Source: Chlorobiota bacterium (GTDB lineage: Bacteria; Bacteroidota; Ignavibacteria; OLB7). Taken from it: a stretch of 64,000 nt of DNA. This document shows positions 36,143 through 40,897 of the stretch, in pieces (the stretch's first letter is position 1; each line of letters begins with the position of its first letter). A program made the position numbers and the translations under genes. The stretch covers positions 186,001 to 250,000 of the forward strand of contig JAQBOZ010000027.1 in the NCBI GenBank assembly GCA_028287785.1, in the 5' to 3' direction. Under the pieces are notes generated by a model. The model was not told where the DNA came from and searched no databases. It saw nothing but the letters and a program-made list of their open reading frames with translations.

Positions 36143-36517
36143 TCAGCGAAATCCAAACGCGCAGTATCCGCATATCAGCCCGAAAATGCCGAACATGATC
36201 AATATCCCGACCGCGAAATAGTGCCACCTCATTTTAAAATGAAGCAGGAGCATTCCGCCCGTTAATGCGCTGGTGATCAAAAACGGCCAGCCCACATATC
36301 CACTACCGGCGGCAATGCCCAGGAAAATGAGGATCAATACTCCGGTCGCGCAACCCAGCAGCGACTGGCATCCGCTGCCGAGGGGATTGCTGAGTTTTTC
36401 CTTTGGAAGAAGATCATCCTCTTCGTCATCATCACGTTGAATGCTCCCGGCCGGCGGCTGGCTCGGGATATTCAGCCGTTGCTGGTCCTCGTCTTCCCGC
36501 GTTTTTTTCGGTTCCAT
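36143..36517 (-). CDS. Small membrane protein with acidic N-terminal tail
   Basis: 124 residues. The first 45 are charged and Asp/Glu-rich (IQRDDDEEDDLLPKEK). Three hydrophobic segments follow (about 55-72, 77-92, 97-118) with glycine-rich faces (GCATGVLILIFLGIAAGSGYVGW). No family recognised. It is near two other small membrane-protein genes in the same direction but is not clearly related to them by sequence. Confidence 0.68.
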   Translation of the reverse strand: MEPKKTREDEDQQRLNIPSQPPAGSIQRDDDEEDDLLPKEKLSNPLGSGCQSLLGCATGVLILIFLGIAAGSGYVGWPFLITSALTGGMLLLHFKMRWHYFAVGILIMFGIFGLICGYCAFGFR

Positions 36518-36549: not shown

Positions 36550-36879
36550 TCATGATGGAAAAGCCTGGGAAAGCCCGGCACACATGCCCAGCAGCAGCAG
36601 GCAGATCCCAATTGCGATGGCGAGGACAAGCAGGCATCCATTCCATCCCTGTCCCTTTGCGATCCTGACGCCGAGGCCGATCAACGTCCCCACCAGCAGC
36701 AGCCCGAATGTCAGAATTACGATCCCCCAGGAGGTCGATATTCCGGCCCGGCTCGCCGCGGCAATGGTGAGGTACAGGATGCAGGGGGCCGCAATGCCGA
36801 GAATTCCGACCGCGACATATGCTCCCCATTTCGGAAATGGCTTCTCTTCCGTTCCGTCTGAATTATCCTCGGAGATCAT
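36550..36879 (-). CDS. Small multi-pass membrane protein (paralogue of 36941)
   Basis: 109 residues. A short acidic N-terminus (ISEDNSDGTEEKP) and WGAYVAVGILGIAAP lead into three hydrophobic helices. The C-terminal QGWNGCLLVLAIAIGICLLL and GMCAGLSQ closely match the protein of 36941-37279, so these are tandem duplicates. Unknown function. Confidence 0.7.
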   Translation of the reverse strand: MISEDNSDGTEEKPFPKWGAYVAVGILGIAAPCILYLTIAAASRAGISTSWGIVILTFGLLLVGTLIGLGVRIAKGQGWNGCLLVLAIAIGICLLLLGMCAGLSQAFPS

Positions 36880-36940: not shown

Positions 36941-37279
36941 TTATCGGGATATATACTCGGAAACGCCGATACACATCCCGAATAACAGGAGGCCGACGCC
37001 CAGGGCAATCGCGACGTAGAGCAGGCATCCATTCCAGGTGCGGCTGCGGGCCGTCATGACGCAGCAGTAGATGAATGCACACGCTATCAATATTCCGAAC
37101 ACGTATGTAACGGAACTACCCTTCCCGCCTCCTTCTCCCGCCAGGCCTCCTCCCACGAGCGTAAGGAAACCAATAAAGAGCGCTCCACATCCCAGAAGCA
37201 CTGTTCCAAGATAGGCGCCCCACCACGGCATCGGATTCGGTGCGGCTTTTTCCGGCTCGGTAGAATTATCGTCGCTCAT
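36941..37279 (-). CDS. Small multi-pass membrane protein (paralogue of 36550)
   Basis: 112 residues: acidic start MSDDNSTEPEK, PWWGAYLGTVLLGCGALF, a glycine-rich loop (GGGLAGEGGGKGSS), then helices ending RTWNGCLLYVAIALGVGLLL and GMCIGVSEY. It shares its layout and last 35 residues with the neighbour at 36550. Unknown function. Confidence 0.7.
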   Translation of the reverse strand: MSDDNSTEPEKAAPNPMPWWGAYLGTVLLGCGALFIGFLTLVGGGLAGEGGGKGSSVTYVFGILIACAFIYCCVMTARSRTWNGCLLYVAIALGVGLLLFGMCIGVSEYISR

Positions 37280-37396: not shown

Positions 37397-38812
37397 CTAC
37401 AGTTCCATCATCACCGGATCGTGCATCGCCTGGAGTTTTTTCAAATACTCCTCTTTTTCGTCGCGATAGAAAATGTTGTACGTATCGAACGGGATAATCC
37501 GGCCGTCGGGATGGACGATATGCACGCAGGAGCGCTTGACGGAGCGGACATCGAAATTATGCGGATCAAGGAACTGCATGATGATAATGCGGAAGAGATT
37601 GTCGTAGCCGATCTCCGCCGGGGCGCTGATAAAGGGGATGCAGCAGAGGAGCTGCTTCAGCGTCATGGCCGATGAGATGGGGGAGTGCGATGTGGAGAAG
37701 AGCTTGAAGAGATGATCGCGCAGCTCCGGGTGCTGCTCGTAGACGATGGTGCTTCCCTCGGACTGGAGAAGGATTGCCGGGTCGATCAGGCCGGTCAGCG
37801 GAATCACCTTGCCTCCCATCTTCAGCGCGTAGCCCATCGCCAGGCAGTCGGGATGGCAGGGGACCGGGATGATATCCTCCGGCTTGAAGACATCGCTCTG
37901 CGAGAGGATTCCCTGGCGGACCTCGGCGAGCGTCAGACGATCGACCGCGGGATCGAAATCCTCCAGTCGCCCGGCAACCTGCACCGGCTGGAATGTGACG
38001 CCGCGGACGCATCGCTGCTTCAGTGCGAAATCGATGATGCTGCCGATCTCGTGATCGTTCAATCCCTTCTTCAGCGTCACCACCAGGTTGGTGGAGATGT
38101 TATACTTGTTCAGGTTCTCCAGCGCCCGCACGCGGATATCCGAAAGGTCGGCGCCGCGGAGCACCTTCAGCGGCTCCACCTCAAGCGAATCGAACTGAAG
38201 ATAGATCTCGAAGCCGGGCATATAGCTCGCGAGCCGTTTGGCGAACTCCCGATCCTGCGCGATCCTGATGCCGTTGGTGTTCACCATCACATGCTTGATC
38301 GGCCGGGCCTTCGCCATATCCAGAATCGCGAAGAAATCCGGGTGGAGCGTTGGCTCGCCGCCGCTGATCTGCACGATATCCGGCTCCTCCTCATTCCGCA
38401 CGATGCGATCCAGCATAAACTCGATCTGCTCCAGCGACCGGTGTTTCATCCGTTGCGGCGATGACTCCGCGTAGCAGATCGGGCAGGTCAGGTTGCATCC
38501 GTCGGTGATCTCGATAAGCGTCAGGCAGCTATGCTGCTCGTGATCGGGGCAGAGCCCGCAGTCGTACGGGCAACCGTAGCGGACCGGCGTGTTGAAATGC
38601 TTCGGGAGCTGGCCGGGCTTCATGAAACGGCGCGTGAGCTGGTAGTAATCGGCATCGGTGGAGATCAGCACCCGCTGGTGCTTGTGTTCCGGGCAGTACT
38701 TCAGGAGGTAGACGCACCCGTCTTCAATCACCACTTTCGCCTCCACCTTCCGCAGACAGGTTGAGCAGATGCTGTTGGTCAGTTCATAGAACAGGTATGG
38801 ACGATCAGACAT
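37397..38812 (-). CDS. Radical SAM protein of the MJ0619/tetraether-synthase-like group
   Basis: 471 residues. The SAM cluster motif is C106-x3-C110-x2-C113 within EITDGCNLTCPICYAESS. Before it are extra cysteine sets: C16-x2-C19, C40, C81-x3-C85-x2-C88 and C96 (VRYGCPYDCGLCPDHEQHSC), and VQISGGEPTLHPDF follows. This cysteine-rich N-terminus plus CxxxCxxC is the pattern of archaeal MJ0619 and of Tes, which joins lipid tails, and of their uncharacterised bacterial homologues. The substrate here is unknown. The ATG overlaps the upstream Lgt-like gene by eight bases, so the two are translationally coupled and probably act on one pathway. Confidence 0.85.
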   Translation of the reverse strand: MSDRPYLFYELTNSICSTCLRKVEAKVVIEDGCVYLLKYCPEHKHQRVLISTDADYYQLTRRFMKPGQLPKHFNTPVRYGCPYDCGLCPDHEQHSCLTLIEITDGCNLTCPICYAESSPQRMKHRSLEQIEFMLDRIVRNEEEPDIVQISGGEPTLHPDFFAILDMAKARPIKHVMVNTNGIRIAQDREFAKRLASYMPGFEIYLQFDSLEVEPLKVLRGADLSDIRVRALENLNKYNISTNLVVTLKKGLNDHEIGSIIDFALKQRCVRGVTFQPVQVAGRLEDFDPAVDRLTLAEVRQGILSQSDVFKPEDIIPVPCHPDCLAMGYALKMGGKVIPLTGLIDPAILLQSEGSTIVYEQHPELRDHLFKLFSTSHSPISSAMTLKQLLCCIPFISAPAEIGYDNLFRIIIMQFLDPHNFDVRSVKRSCVHIVHPDGRIIPFDTYNIFYRDEKEEYLKKLQAMHDPVMMEL

Positions 38813-39575
38813 AGGATGATCTCTCGTTCACTGGAAGGTTGTAGGGATTGTCCCGGAGAAATATTCGGGCGCAGTAGATGGCGCCGGCAAGCGACGCGAT
38901 CTGAATGGCGCTCAGGCCGAGCGGATGATATCTCGGTTTGATGAACTCCACGAGAAACCGGAAGAGAAAATAGGTGAACATGTAGAACCGGAACAGCCAG
39001 CCGTTCACGTACGGCCGCCGGATGCGGAACAGAAGATAGACCCCGACCGCGAGGACCGTAACGATCTCGTACAGCTGCGCCGGGTGCCGCGGTATCCCGT
39101 CGCCGAAATCGATTCCCCAGGGGAGCGAGGTGGGAACGCCGTAGGTCTGGTCCTGAAGGCCGGAGAGGAAGCAGCCGATGCGACCGATAGCCGTGCCGAT
39201 GATCAGCGGGAAGACGTAGGCATCGCCGGTTGCATAGGTGATGCCCAGTTTCTTTTTGACGATCTCCACGCCAAGCCATCCGCCGATGTATCCCCCCACG
39301 ATCGTCTTTCCCTCCAGCCAGTACGCGATATCCCCCCGGTGCGCCCAGTAATCGAGCGGCATCTCCAGCATGTTCAGCATCTTCGACCCGATCAGCGCGC
39401 CGAAGATGCAGCCGACGATAAGCCACAGGTTCTGCTGCTGCGGGACAGCCTGATGCTTCCAGAATTTTCTGGTCCGCAGAAATGTCTGAAAACCGACCGT
39501 GTAGGCGAGCGATTCAAAGAGAAGGTGAGGATGGATCTGATATCCGAACAGGGAGATATACGCCGGAAAGGTCAC
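38805..39575 (-). CDS. Divergent Lgt-family membrane protein (prolipoprotein diacylglyceryl transferase-like)
   Basis: 256 residues from a GTG at 39575, with seven hydrophobic segments as in Lgt. Recognisable signatures: TIVGGYIGGWLGV (92-103), GRIGCFLSG (131-139), RHPAQLYE (163-170) and FRFLVEFIKPR (205-215). Compared with E. coli Lgt from memory of the family, R132, R206 and E210 are kept. The position of His103 is Val93, that of Asn146 is Cys135, and Glu151 is not retained. Loss of these residues argues against normal lipoprotein acylation. Overlap with the radical SAM gene suggests a joint role in membrane-lipid chemistry (inference). Confidence 0.78.
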   Translation of the reverse strand: MTFPAYISLFGYQIHPHLLFESLAYTVGFQTFLRTRKFWKHQAVPQQQNLWLIVGCIFGALIGSKMLNMLEMPLDYWAHRGDIAYWLEGKTIVGGYIGGWLGVEIVKKKLGITYATGDAYVFPLIIGTAIGRIGCFLSGLQDQTYGVPTSLPWGIDFGDGIPRHPAQLYEIVTVLAVGVYLLFRIRRPYVNGWLFRFYMFTYFLFRFLVEFIKPRYHPLGLSAIQIASLAGAIYCARIFLRDNPYNLPVNERSSYV

Positions 39576-39610: not shown

Positions 39611-39640
39611 GTCGGGGACGGTTTCAAACCGTCCCTGTAA
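39611..39640. repeat. REP-like palindrome, family A copy 2
   Basis: Arms GGGACGGTTT (39615-39624) and AAACCGTCCC (39626-39635) with one central base, framed by GTCGG on the left and TGTAAG on the right, as in the copy at 18211-18240. It supplies the last codons and stop of the ROK kinase gene. Confidence 0.6.
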
Positions 39641-40586
39641 GAACCAGCGACAGAAGCCCGGCGCCGATCATGCCGGCATCGTTCGAGAAACGGGCCACGC
39701 GGAGCTCGACATCGAGCGATATCGATTTGATGGCGCGGAGCTGCAATGACCGGCGGGCCGGCCCCAGCAGGTATTTCTCGGCATGCGAAAGCCCGCCACC
39801 GACAATCACCAGATGCATATCGGTCATGTTCACCATGGAGGCCAGGGCCGCGCCCAGCAGCGTTCCCATCTCCGCCAGGAACTCCCGCGCGAACATGTCG
39901 CCGGCAACCGCGGCCTCATCCACGAGCTTCGGGTCCAGCTCCTTGCCGGCGGCGATCATCGCATGCAGAAGGGAATCGGGATCGCGCTCCAGGCGGCGCG
40001 CCGCTTCGGTTGCCATATAGCGGTGGCCGATATAGGCCTCGATGCAGCCGCGCGCTCCGCAGTTGCAGAGAGGCCCGTTGATATCGATCGAGACATGCCC
40101 CACTTCCCCCGCTCCGCCGGTTGCGCCCCGCCAGATGTTCCCGCCCGAGATGATGCAGCCGCCGACGCCGGTGCCGAGCGTGATAAAGAGAAAATCCTGA
40201 TCGCTGCTTCCGGTGCCGGCCCGCGCCTCGGCGTAGGCTGCGACATTGGCATCGTTCTCCACCACGATGGGAAGCTGTGCCGGCAGATGAGGCCGTAGCC
40301 GCTCGGCGACATTGACAACGCCCCAGCCGGGGAAGTTCGGGGGATAGGAGATTTCGCCGCGGTTGTTGACCACGCCCGGAACGCCAAGACCGATCGAGGC
40401 GACCGGCTCGCCGCCGTCGAGGAGGGAGCGGATCGCCTCGGCTATCCGTTCGATCACCGCATCCGGCCCCTGCGCGGCACGCGTATCGAAAGCGGCATGG
40501 CGGATCAGCGTGCCATCCCTTCGCACCAGCCCGGCCTTGATCGTCGTTCCCCCCACATCGAGACCGATGGCGATGGTTTCCTCCAT
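39624..40586 (-). CDS. ROK-family glucokinase
   Basis: 320 residues from the ATG at 40586, which overlaps the ftsB-like stop by one base (TGATG); a GTG at 40589 is also in frame. ATP motif IGLDVGGTTIKAG at the N-terminus; LGVPGVV and VENDANVAAYAEA for sugar binding; FITLGTGVGGCIISGG; zinc site GHVSIDINGPLCNCG plus ARGCIEAY. These match bacterial glucokinases of the ROK family rather than repressors, since no helix-turn-helix is present. Reaction: glucose (or mannose/GlcNAc) to the 6-phosphate. The REP-like palindrome forms its C-terminal codons. Confidence 0.9.
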   Translation of the reverse strand: MEETIAIGLDVGGTTIKAGLVRRDGTLIRHAAFDTRAAQGPDAVIERIAEAIRSLLDGGEPVASIGLGVPGVVNNRGEISYPPNFPGWGVVNVAERLRPHLPAQLPIVVENDANVAAYAEARAGTGSSDQDFLFITLGTGVGGCIISGGNIWRGATGGAGEVGHVSIDINGPLCNCGARGCIEAYIGHRYMATEAARRLERDPDSLLHAMIAAGKELDPKLVDEAAVAGDMFAREFLAEMGTLLGAALASMVNMTDMHLVIVGGGLSHAEKYLLGPARRSLQLRAIKSISLDVELRVARFSNDAGMIGAGLLSLVLTGTV

Positions 40587-40897
40587 CACTCGTTCACCCG
40601 GTAGATGGTCTCTCCGGCGCGGACCATGCCGTAGCGTTCGCGGGCAAGCTGTTCCACCGCGGAGGAGTCCCGCTGGATTCTTGTGATCTCGGCTTTCAGT
40701 GAATCACCCGCCGCGCGATCGCGATACAGATCGCGGTGGAGCTGATCCAGATGACGCTGAAGCTCGATGCGATTGAGCAGCCCATGGTTGCCGAACGTGA
40801 AGATCGCCAGCAGCGGAACCGCCACCAGAGCCGCGTATAATCCCTTCCGCCGCGTCGTAAGGGGACGCGGCCGGAAGCGCCGACTGAAACGTTTCAT
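40586..40897 (-). CDS. ftsB: FtsB/DivIC-like septum formation initiator
   Basis: 103 residues: a basic N-terminus, one transmembrane helix (about 19-37, GLYAALVAVPLLAIFTFGN), then a coiled coil (ELQRHLDQLHRDLYRDRAAGDSLKAEI) and the closing RYGMVRAGETIYRV motif typical of FtsB. Family role: inner-membrane division protein that joins FtsL and FtsQ at the septum. Stop and next start overlap (TGATG), so the glucokinase is translationally coupled to it. No other division genes are adjacent. Confidence 0.85.
   Translation of the reverse strand: MKRFSRRFRPRPLTTRRKGLYAALVAVPLLAIFTFGNHGLLNRIELQRHLDQLHRDLYRDRAAGDSLKAEITRIQRDSSAVEQLARERYGMVRAGETIYRVNE

Follow-up and report, generated by a model that had tools for sequence, protein, structure and literature searches.

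The window, that is, the whole 64,000-nucleotide stretch of DNA analysed here, contains on its reverse (-) strand the genes for two enzymes and three small membrane proteins, which together make up one larger unit. The first enzyme is an Lgt paralogue (PF01790) of 256 aa with a GTG start (38805-39575, -), and the second a Tes/TrsS-like radical SAM protein of 471 aa with an ATG start (37397-38812, -). The two genes overlap by eight bases (38805-38812, - strand, from the ORF coordinates), as the original prediction had stated, and this overlap is compatible with translational coupling. Small membrane protein 1 (36941-37279, -; 112 aa) and small membrane protein 2 (36550-36879, -; 109 aa) are the proposed substrates. 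Their putative acceptor residues are C103, found in ...GVGLLLFGMC-IGVSEYISR and encoded at 36971-36973 (-), and C100, found in ...GICLLLLGMC-AGLSQAFPS and encoded at 36580-36582 (-). Small membrane protein 3 (36143-36517, -; 124 aa) has C116 and C119 in ...GIFGLICGYC-AFGFR. The locus had at first been described as a two-gene operon; the pair itself stands, but the description proved incomplete, since small membrane proteins with a cysteine near the C-terminus are a third conserved component. Clustering of the neighbour proteins produced no fourth gene common to all loci. Just upstream of the Lgt paralogue lies a ROK-family kinase gene (39624-40589, -; PF00480), a neighbour which is retained in the sister genome. 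This gene is overlapped by four bases by that of a small coiled-coil protein resembling FtsB/DivIC (40586-40897, -), identified by eye.

The Lgt paralogue passes the gathering score of PF01790 (96 bits, threshold 24.9) and falls under the cut-offs of the NCBIfam lgt equivalogs (62 against 334 for NF000778, and 41.8 against 118.9 for TIGR00544). The features originally read from its sequence, namely GRIG, RHPAQLYE, FRFLVEF, V93 and C135, are all present, and alignment to E. coli Lgt (5AZB) places V93 at the H103 position and C135 at the N146 position. In E. coli numbering, the window protein keeps R143, R239, Y235, E202 and G154, whilst H103 is replaced by V, Y26 by H, M100 by K and N146 by C. 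The same picture emerges from an alignment of 26 paralogues. R143, R239, Y235, E202, G142, G145 and G154 are kept in all 26, I or V stands at position 102, mostly K or R at position 100 and mostly H at position 26, whilst position 146 is always Cys. The H103 position is filled in every one of the 26 by V, M, L, A or T, mostly an aliphatic residue, and in none by H, Y, W or F. The H103GGL region is reshaped to [KR]-[TS]-[IV]-[VML]-G-G.

In E. coli Lgt, R143 and R239 have been assigned to the transfer reaction, and the HGGL motif has been proposed as the binding site of the lipobox peptide (Mao et al., PMC4728403). The pattern in the paralogues would be that of an enzyme whose donor site is retained and whose peptide site is altered. 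H103 is essential in the E. coli enzyme, the mutants H103A, H103N, H103Q, H103R and H103Y all being inactive (PMC4728403), so that an aliphatic residue at this position may mean that the activity of the paralogue is lost or different. AlphaFold2 models built from two-row alignments were poor, with pLDDT values of 59 for the Lgt paralogue and 39.5 for the radical SAM protein, and Foldseek returned no significant match.

The residue at position 146 carries less meaning than had been supposed. C135 had been taken as a sign of altered function, a claim which has to be given up, since Cys is also common here in canonical Lgt. The genome's own canonical copy has Cys at the N146 position and Tyr at the H103 position, and Cys is found at the former in 11 of the 21 other Lgt copies with a letter there. 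A 2026 study of other Lgts similarly reports that H103 may be Y, W or F and that N146 may be Cys (PMC13251419). At the H103 position, only a residue which is neither His nor aromatic sets the paralogue clade apart.

The canonical gene just mentioned is a second lgt on another contig, scoring 174 bits against 96 for the paralogue, and a higher-scoring canonical lgt is likewise present in all 18 of the further pair-bearing genomes checked. A tree built from 49 Lgt proteins groups the 26 paralogues, drawn from Bacteroidota and Actinobacteria, in one clade with a branch support of 100/99. Canonical Lgt (E. coli 5AZB/5AZC) and the paralogue are homologous over their whole length and have in common the seven residues invariant in the alignment; the paralogue differs in having V, M, L, A or T in place of H103, in scoring far under the lgt cut-offs and in coexisting with a canonical Lgt. 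The second Lgt homologue of M. smegmatis, MSMEG_5408, carries Y26H and N146C as does the paralogue clade (PMC13251419), and may possibly be an actinobacterial member of it. Some genomes contain a third Lgt homologue besides the canonical enzyme and the paralogue (G174:C23, G235:C1:847230, G223:C16, G001:C16 and G291:C1:2405006).

The radical SAM protein aligns over its full length with Tes from M. jannaschii (MJ0619, 7TOL; E = 5.6e-71), which is its nearest solved relative. Its best match in NCBIfam is TrsS (NF045646) at 324.6 bits, under the 490-bit cut-off, and it scores 297 bits with Tes (NF045702), under the 450-bit cut-off. A CxxxCxxC motif preceded by four further sets of cysteines had been noted from the sequence, and these are indeed found: the motif is C106-x3-C110-x2-C113, and the sets before it are C16/C19, C40 (with H43), C81/C85/C88 (with H91) and C96. 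The first three sets correspond to the rubredoxin-like site (C16/C19/C40/H43) and the N-terminal cluster (C81/C85/C88/H91) of Tes. Both of these (C-x2-C-x20-C-x2-H and C/C/C/H), along with CX3CX2C, are kept from Tes/GDGT-MAS in the Bacteroidota members, whilst the actinobacterial members are without the cysteines of the N-terminal cluster. The HMPTM zinc ribbon is present, and C96, C319 and C429 are invariant in the main Bacteroidota clade.

The resemblance to Tes is less complete towards the C-terminus. All Tes and methyltransferase-linked rows of the alignment have Cys at positions 323, 428 and 443, which are mostly A, S or D/E in the main Bacteroidota clade, where the Met is kept. The cysteines of the Tes C-terminal cluster have thus probably been lost in this clade, the positions of the ligands being deduced from conservation and Met439 being the ligand named for Tes (PMC9433317). 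In Tes, a bond joins a carbon of the lipid to a sulphur atom within one of the Fe4S4 clusters (PMC9433317). If that cluster is the C-terminal one, the replacement of its cysteines means that the chemistry is probably not identical to that of Tes. The description of the protein as Tes/MJ0619-like therefore survives as a statement of full-length homology, but filing it as a plain Tes does not, given scores under both the TrsS and the Tes cut-offs and the replacement of the probable cluster cysteines.

The genomic partners differ too. Those of the window system are Lgt-like and not archaeal lipid genes, and its host makes bacterial lipids, in contrast to Tes. C96 and C319 of the window protein are found again in four methyltransferase-linked plasmid relatives, and both residues are absent from the Tes rows. 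In these TrsS-like relatives, from haloarchaeal plasmids (L164, L165 and L166) and Mycolicibacterium (L040), a methyltransferase gene follows directly and there is no Lgt neighbour; the window gene has the Lgt paralogue and the small proteins as neighbours and no adjacent methyltransferase. Genes for a peroxiredoxin/redoxin and a DUF547 protein lie upstream of the TrsS-like gene in L164 and L166. In the tree, a weakly supported branch (93/75) has all the Lgt-linked radical SAM proteins to one side of it. In a diverged sub-clade, the genes for the two enzymes are separated by one for a DUF4395 protein (L060 9518-10516, L061 10271-10951 and L062 5280-5858); the L060 copy matches PF14340 with E = 3.5e-12. 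By eye, a further gene in L062 (4784-5377) looks like a relative of isoprenylcysteine methyltransferase.

The third component was absent from the original prediction. All three small proteins of the window have G-x-C at the end of their last transmembrane helix. Proteins 1 and 2 are paralogues with 42% identity and protein 3 is more diverged; further copies of proteins 1 and 2 were not matched elsewhere in their own genome, and the small proteins gave no significant family match in Pfam or NCBIfam. Counterparts at other loci were collected with a search rule set after the neighbours had been read. An ORF qualified if it encoded 45-180 aa with two hydrophobic segments and with [GASC]-x-C among the final 22 residues, and if it lay on the same strand within 700 bases. 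The rule yields 23 ORFs in 19 of 23 loci, where 0.31 would be expected on the basis of the remaining parts of these loci. Three loci have no match: L008 has the protein but misses the hydrophobicity limit, L059 is cut by a contig end, and L046 is the unlinked copy of genome G125.

The cysteine was itself a criterion in collecting these proteins, a circularity which is reduced, albeit not removed, by later loci and by a selection free of Cys. On loci fetched afterwards the rule was positive in 8 of 10, several of them from genera already seen and the set thus partly non-independent. With Cys dropped from the selection, all 35 adjacent small two-helix ORFs had a cysteine near the C-terminus, as against 11 of 27 in a background which includes non-genes (Fisher p = 5e-8).

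The collected small proteins vary freely outside the C-terminal motif. The residue at position -2 to the Cys is G in 27 of 35 and S in 4 of 35. The Cys itself lies after the last helix, 1-14 residues from the C-terminus, and the tail behind it is poorly conserved and has a charge near zero; the N-terminal signal peptide with lipobox and Cys+1 of an ordinary lipoprotein is not seen. In 33 of the 35 proteins the loop leading into the last helix carries a net positive charge, and because of this loop, with the positive-inside rule as the sole basis, the Cys is predicted to lie on the outer face of the membrane. A 368-aa protein from Nonomuraea (L042 7093-8199) combines a long N-terminal region rich in Pro, Gly and Gln with a C-terminal three-helix GxC end, which suggests that such an end can tag larger proteins too.

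The two enzymes occur together. Of 395 evenly sampled Bacteroidota genomes, 31 contain the radical SAM gene and 32 the Lgt paralogue, the former 31 having both, and the genes lie side by side in every sampled locus with two exceptions. The additional genome with a paralogue (G112) gave no radical SAM match, and its Lgt-paralogue relative (L161, C10:163760-164449) possibly belongs to a separate sub-family. In G328 and G125, both enzymes are present on separate contigs, and in one of these genomes no small protein lies beside either enzyme. Over 23 loci, the distances among the paralogues correlate with those among the radical SAM proteins (r = 0.85, Mantel p = 0.0002), a relationship to which common descent contributes. 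The original prediction, that the Lgt-like protein is not an ordinary Lgt, is borne out by the separate higher-scoring canonical lgt in the same genome and by the conservation of the gene pair; neither of the contrary outcomes named beforehand, the absence of any other lgt combined with proof that the protein acylates lipoproteins, and a lack of conservation of the pair in relatives, was encountered.

Of 99 relatives ranging from genus to class level, four gave any match, and the match was close only in the host's own and sister species, from which it follows that the trio is patchily distributed. On plasmid pPP1 of Persicobacter psychrovividus, the genes for the Lgt paralogue, the radical SAM protein and a GxC protein of 59 aa follow one another. 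Occurrence outside Bacteroidota rests on plasmids: Mycobacterium avium and M. branderi have plasmids which combine the paralogue and the radical SAM gene with genes for GxC membrane proteins, and a Nonomuraea gerenzanensis record shows the same combination. The actinobacterial GxC ends, of the LSAGICTG type, include ILTAGICTGLNPAMYTWR, VLSAGYCTGLNPSDYRSY, ILSAGICTGINPSLYG and ILSGGLCTGLNPADYAG. No viral relative was found. The three-part architecture is conserved over two phyla, its enzymes co-occur tightly, and the residues with which Lgt handles phosphatidylglycerol are retained.

We consider it somewhat probable that these components form a dedicated three-part system, in which the paralogue lipidates the C-terminal Cys of one to three small membrane proteins and the radical SAM enzyme acts in the same pathway. 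From the sequences we infer its topology, the lipid transfer and the order of the steps. The positive loop, the hydrophobic helix and the [GS]-x-C motif would mimic the n-region, h-region and lipobox of a signal peptide, placed last in the protein instead of first. With the loop in the cytoplasm, the last helix would present the Cys at its outer end, the place which the lipobox Cys takes for ordinary Lgt. The paralogue would then transfer sn-1,2-diacylglyceryl from phosphatidylglycerol to the thiol of this Cys at the outer face, its H103GGL peptide site having been reshaped so as to accept a C-terminal helix and not an N-terminal signal peptide. The small protein would remain uncleaved and end up double-anchored. 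The least certain step is that of the radical SAM enzyme, cytosolic by sequence, which may act on the donor acyl chain, on the attached lipid or on the helix beside the Cys, a role guessed from distant relatives; Tes binds phospholipid tails (PMC9433317).

The radical SAM enzyme may alternatively serve to make an unusual membrane lipid by coupling or altering acyl chains, with the paralogue moving diacylglyceryl between lipids and the small proteins acting as accessory subunits or thiol carriers. Its nearest solved relative is the lipid-coupling Tes, homologues of which are also found in bacteria with no known production of biphytanyl chains (PMC9433317) and have been proposed to take part in brGDGT synthesis (PMC8941075). 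We nevertheless judge such a function unlikely, as the probable cluster cysteines at the C-terminus have become A, S or D/E in the Bacteroidota clade, and the variability of the small proteins outside their motif suits a substrate tag better than a subunit. The small protein could itself be the object of the radical chemistry, undergoing a RiPP-like change such as a thioether or backbone modification near the Cys, with the paralogue as a non-catalytic scaffold or second modifier. RiPP loci typically pair small conserved-motif peptides with a radical SAM enzyme, an arrangement resembled by the present loci, and H103, which E. coli Lgt cannot do without, is gone from all paralogues. The invariance of the Lgt donor-site residues in all 26 of them would be unexpected for a dead scaffold, however, the Cys is predicted to face outwards, away from the cytosolic radical SAM enzyme, and the short tail is poorly conserved, all of which makes a RiPP-like modification quite improbable.

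It is very improbable that the paralogue serves ordinary lipoproteins as a second general Lgt, beside which the neighbouring genes are unrelated hitch-hikers. Two lgt genes are known from about 1,300 genomes (PMC13251419), but the paralogues constitute a separate monophyletic clade with its own replacement of H103, they co-occur tightly with the radical SAM gene even when unlinked from it, and the small two-helix ORFs beside them carry the Cys in 35 of 35 cases. The trio, read as a C-terminal lipidation system, is rated as belonging with the lipoprotein modification systems, which are known in kind, and the original prediction of an uncharacterised lipoprotein or membrane-lipid modification system pointed to the right area. 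A more radical version of this reading remains, namely an inverted C-terminal lipoprotein pathway in which the radical SAM enzyme joins or rewires the acyl chains of the lipidated last helix, so creating a covalent protein-lipid anchor which may span the membrane; this version is a doubtful one.

Two described C-terminal elements come close to the proposed tag. NF058595 (invert_tail, 'lipo-invert putative C-terminal anchoring domain') bears a name which suggests that NCBI curators have considered C-terminal anchoring, and one of the small proteins matches it weakly (13.9 bits, E = 0.05). With 13.9 bits as the best score against a cut-off of 37, the small proteins were rejected as members of this family, which itself has no match over the cut-off in 296 Bacteroidota genomes. 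The MYXO-CTERM/myxosortase system also uses a C-terminal sorting tag with an invariant Cys which is predicted to be lipidated, as is proposed here (PMC11980579). In MYXO-CTERM the Cys stands ahead of the helix, behind which comes an Arg-rich end, and a CPBP protease cleaves the protein (PMC11980579), whereas in the window system the Cys comes after the helix and there is no linked protease. No description of the gene pair, of 'lipo-invert' (including NF058595) or of a C-terminal lipobox was found in open-licence papers.

According to current teaching, the S-diacylglyceryl lipidation of bacterial proteins takes place at the N-terminus and needs a signal peptide and one Lgt. The trio suggests that proteins may be lipid-tagged at their C-terminus, in a manner so far undescribed. 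If this is true, Bacteroidota and Actinobacteria possess a second lipidation route, at the tail end of the protein, and one class of duplicated lgt genes would be accounted for. The bacterial Tes/TrsS-like radical SAM enzymes would, furthermore, gain a genetic partner which is defined and a substrate of ~60-130 residues which can be tested, for which the prediction is a concrete one: one cysteine, one enzyme and one mass shift.
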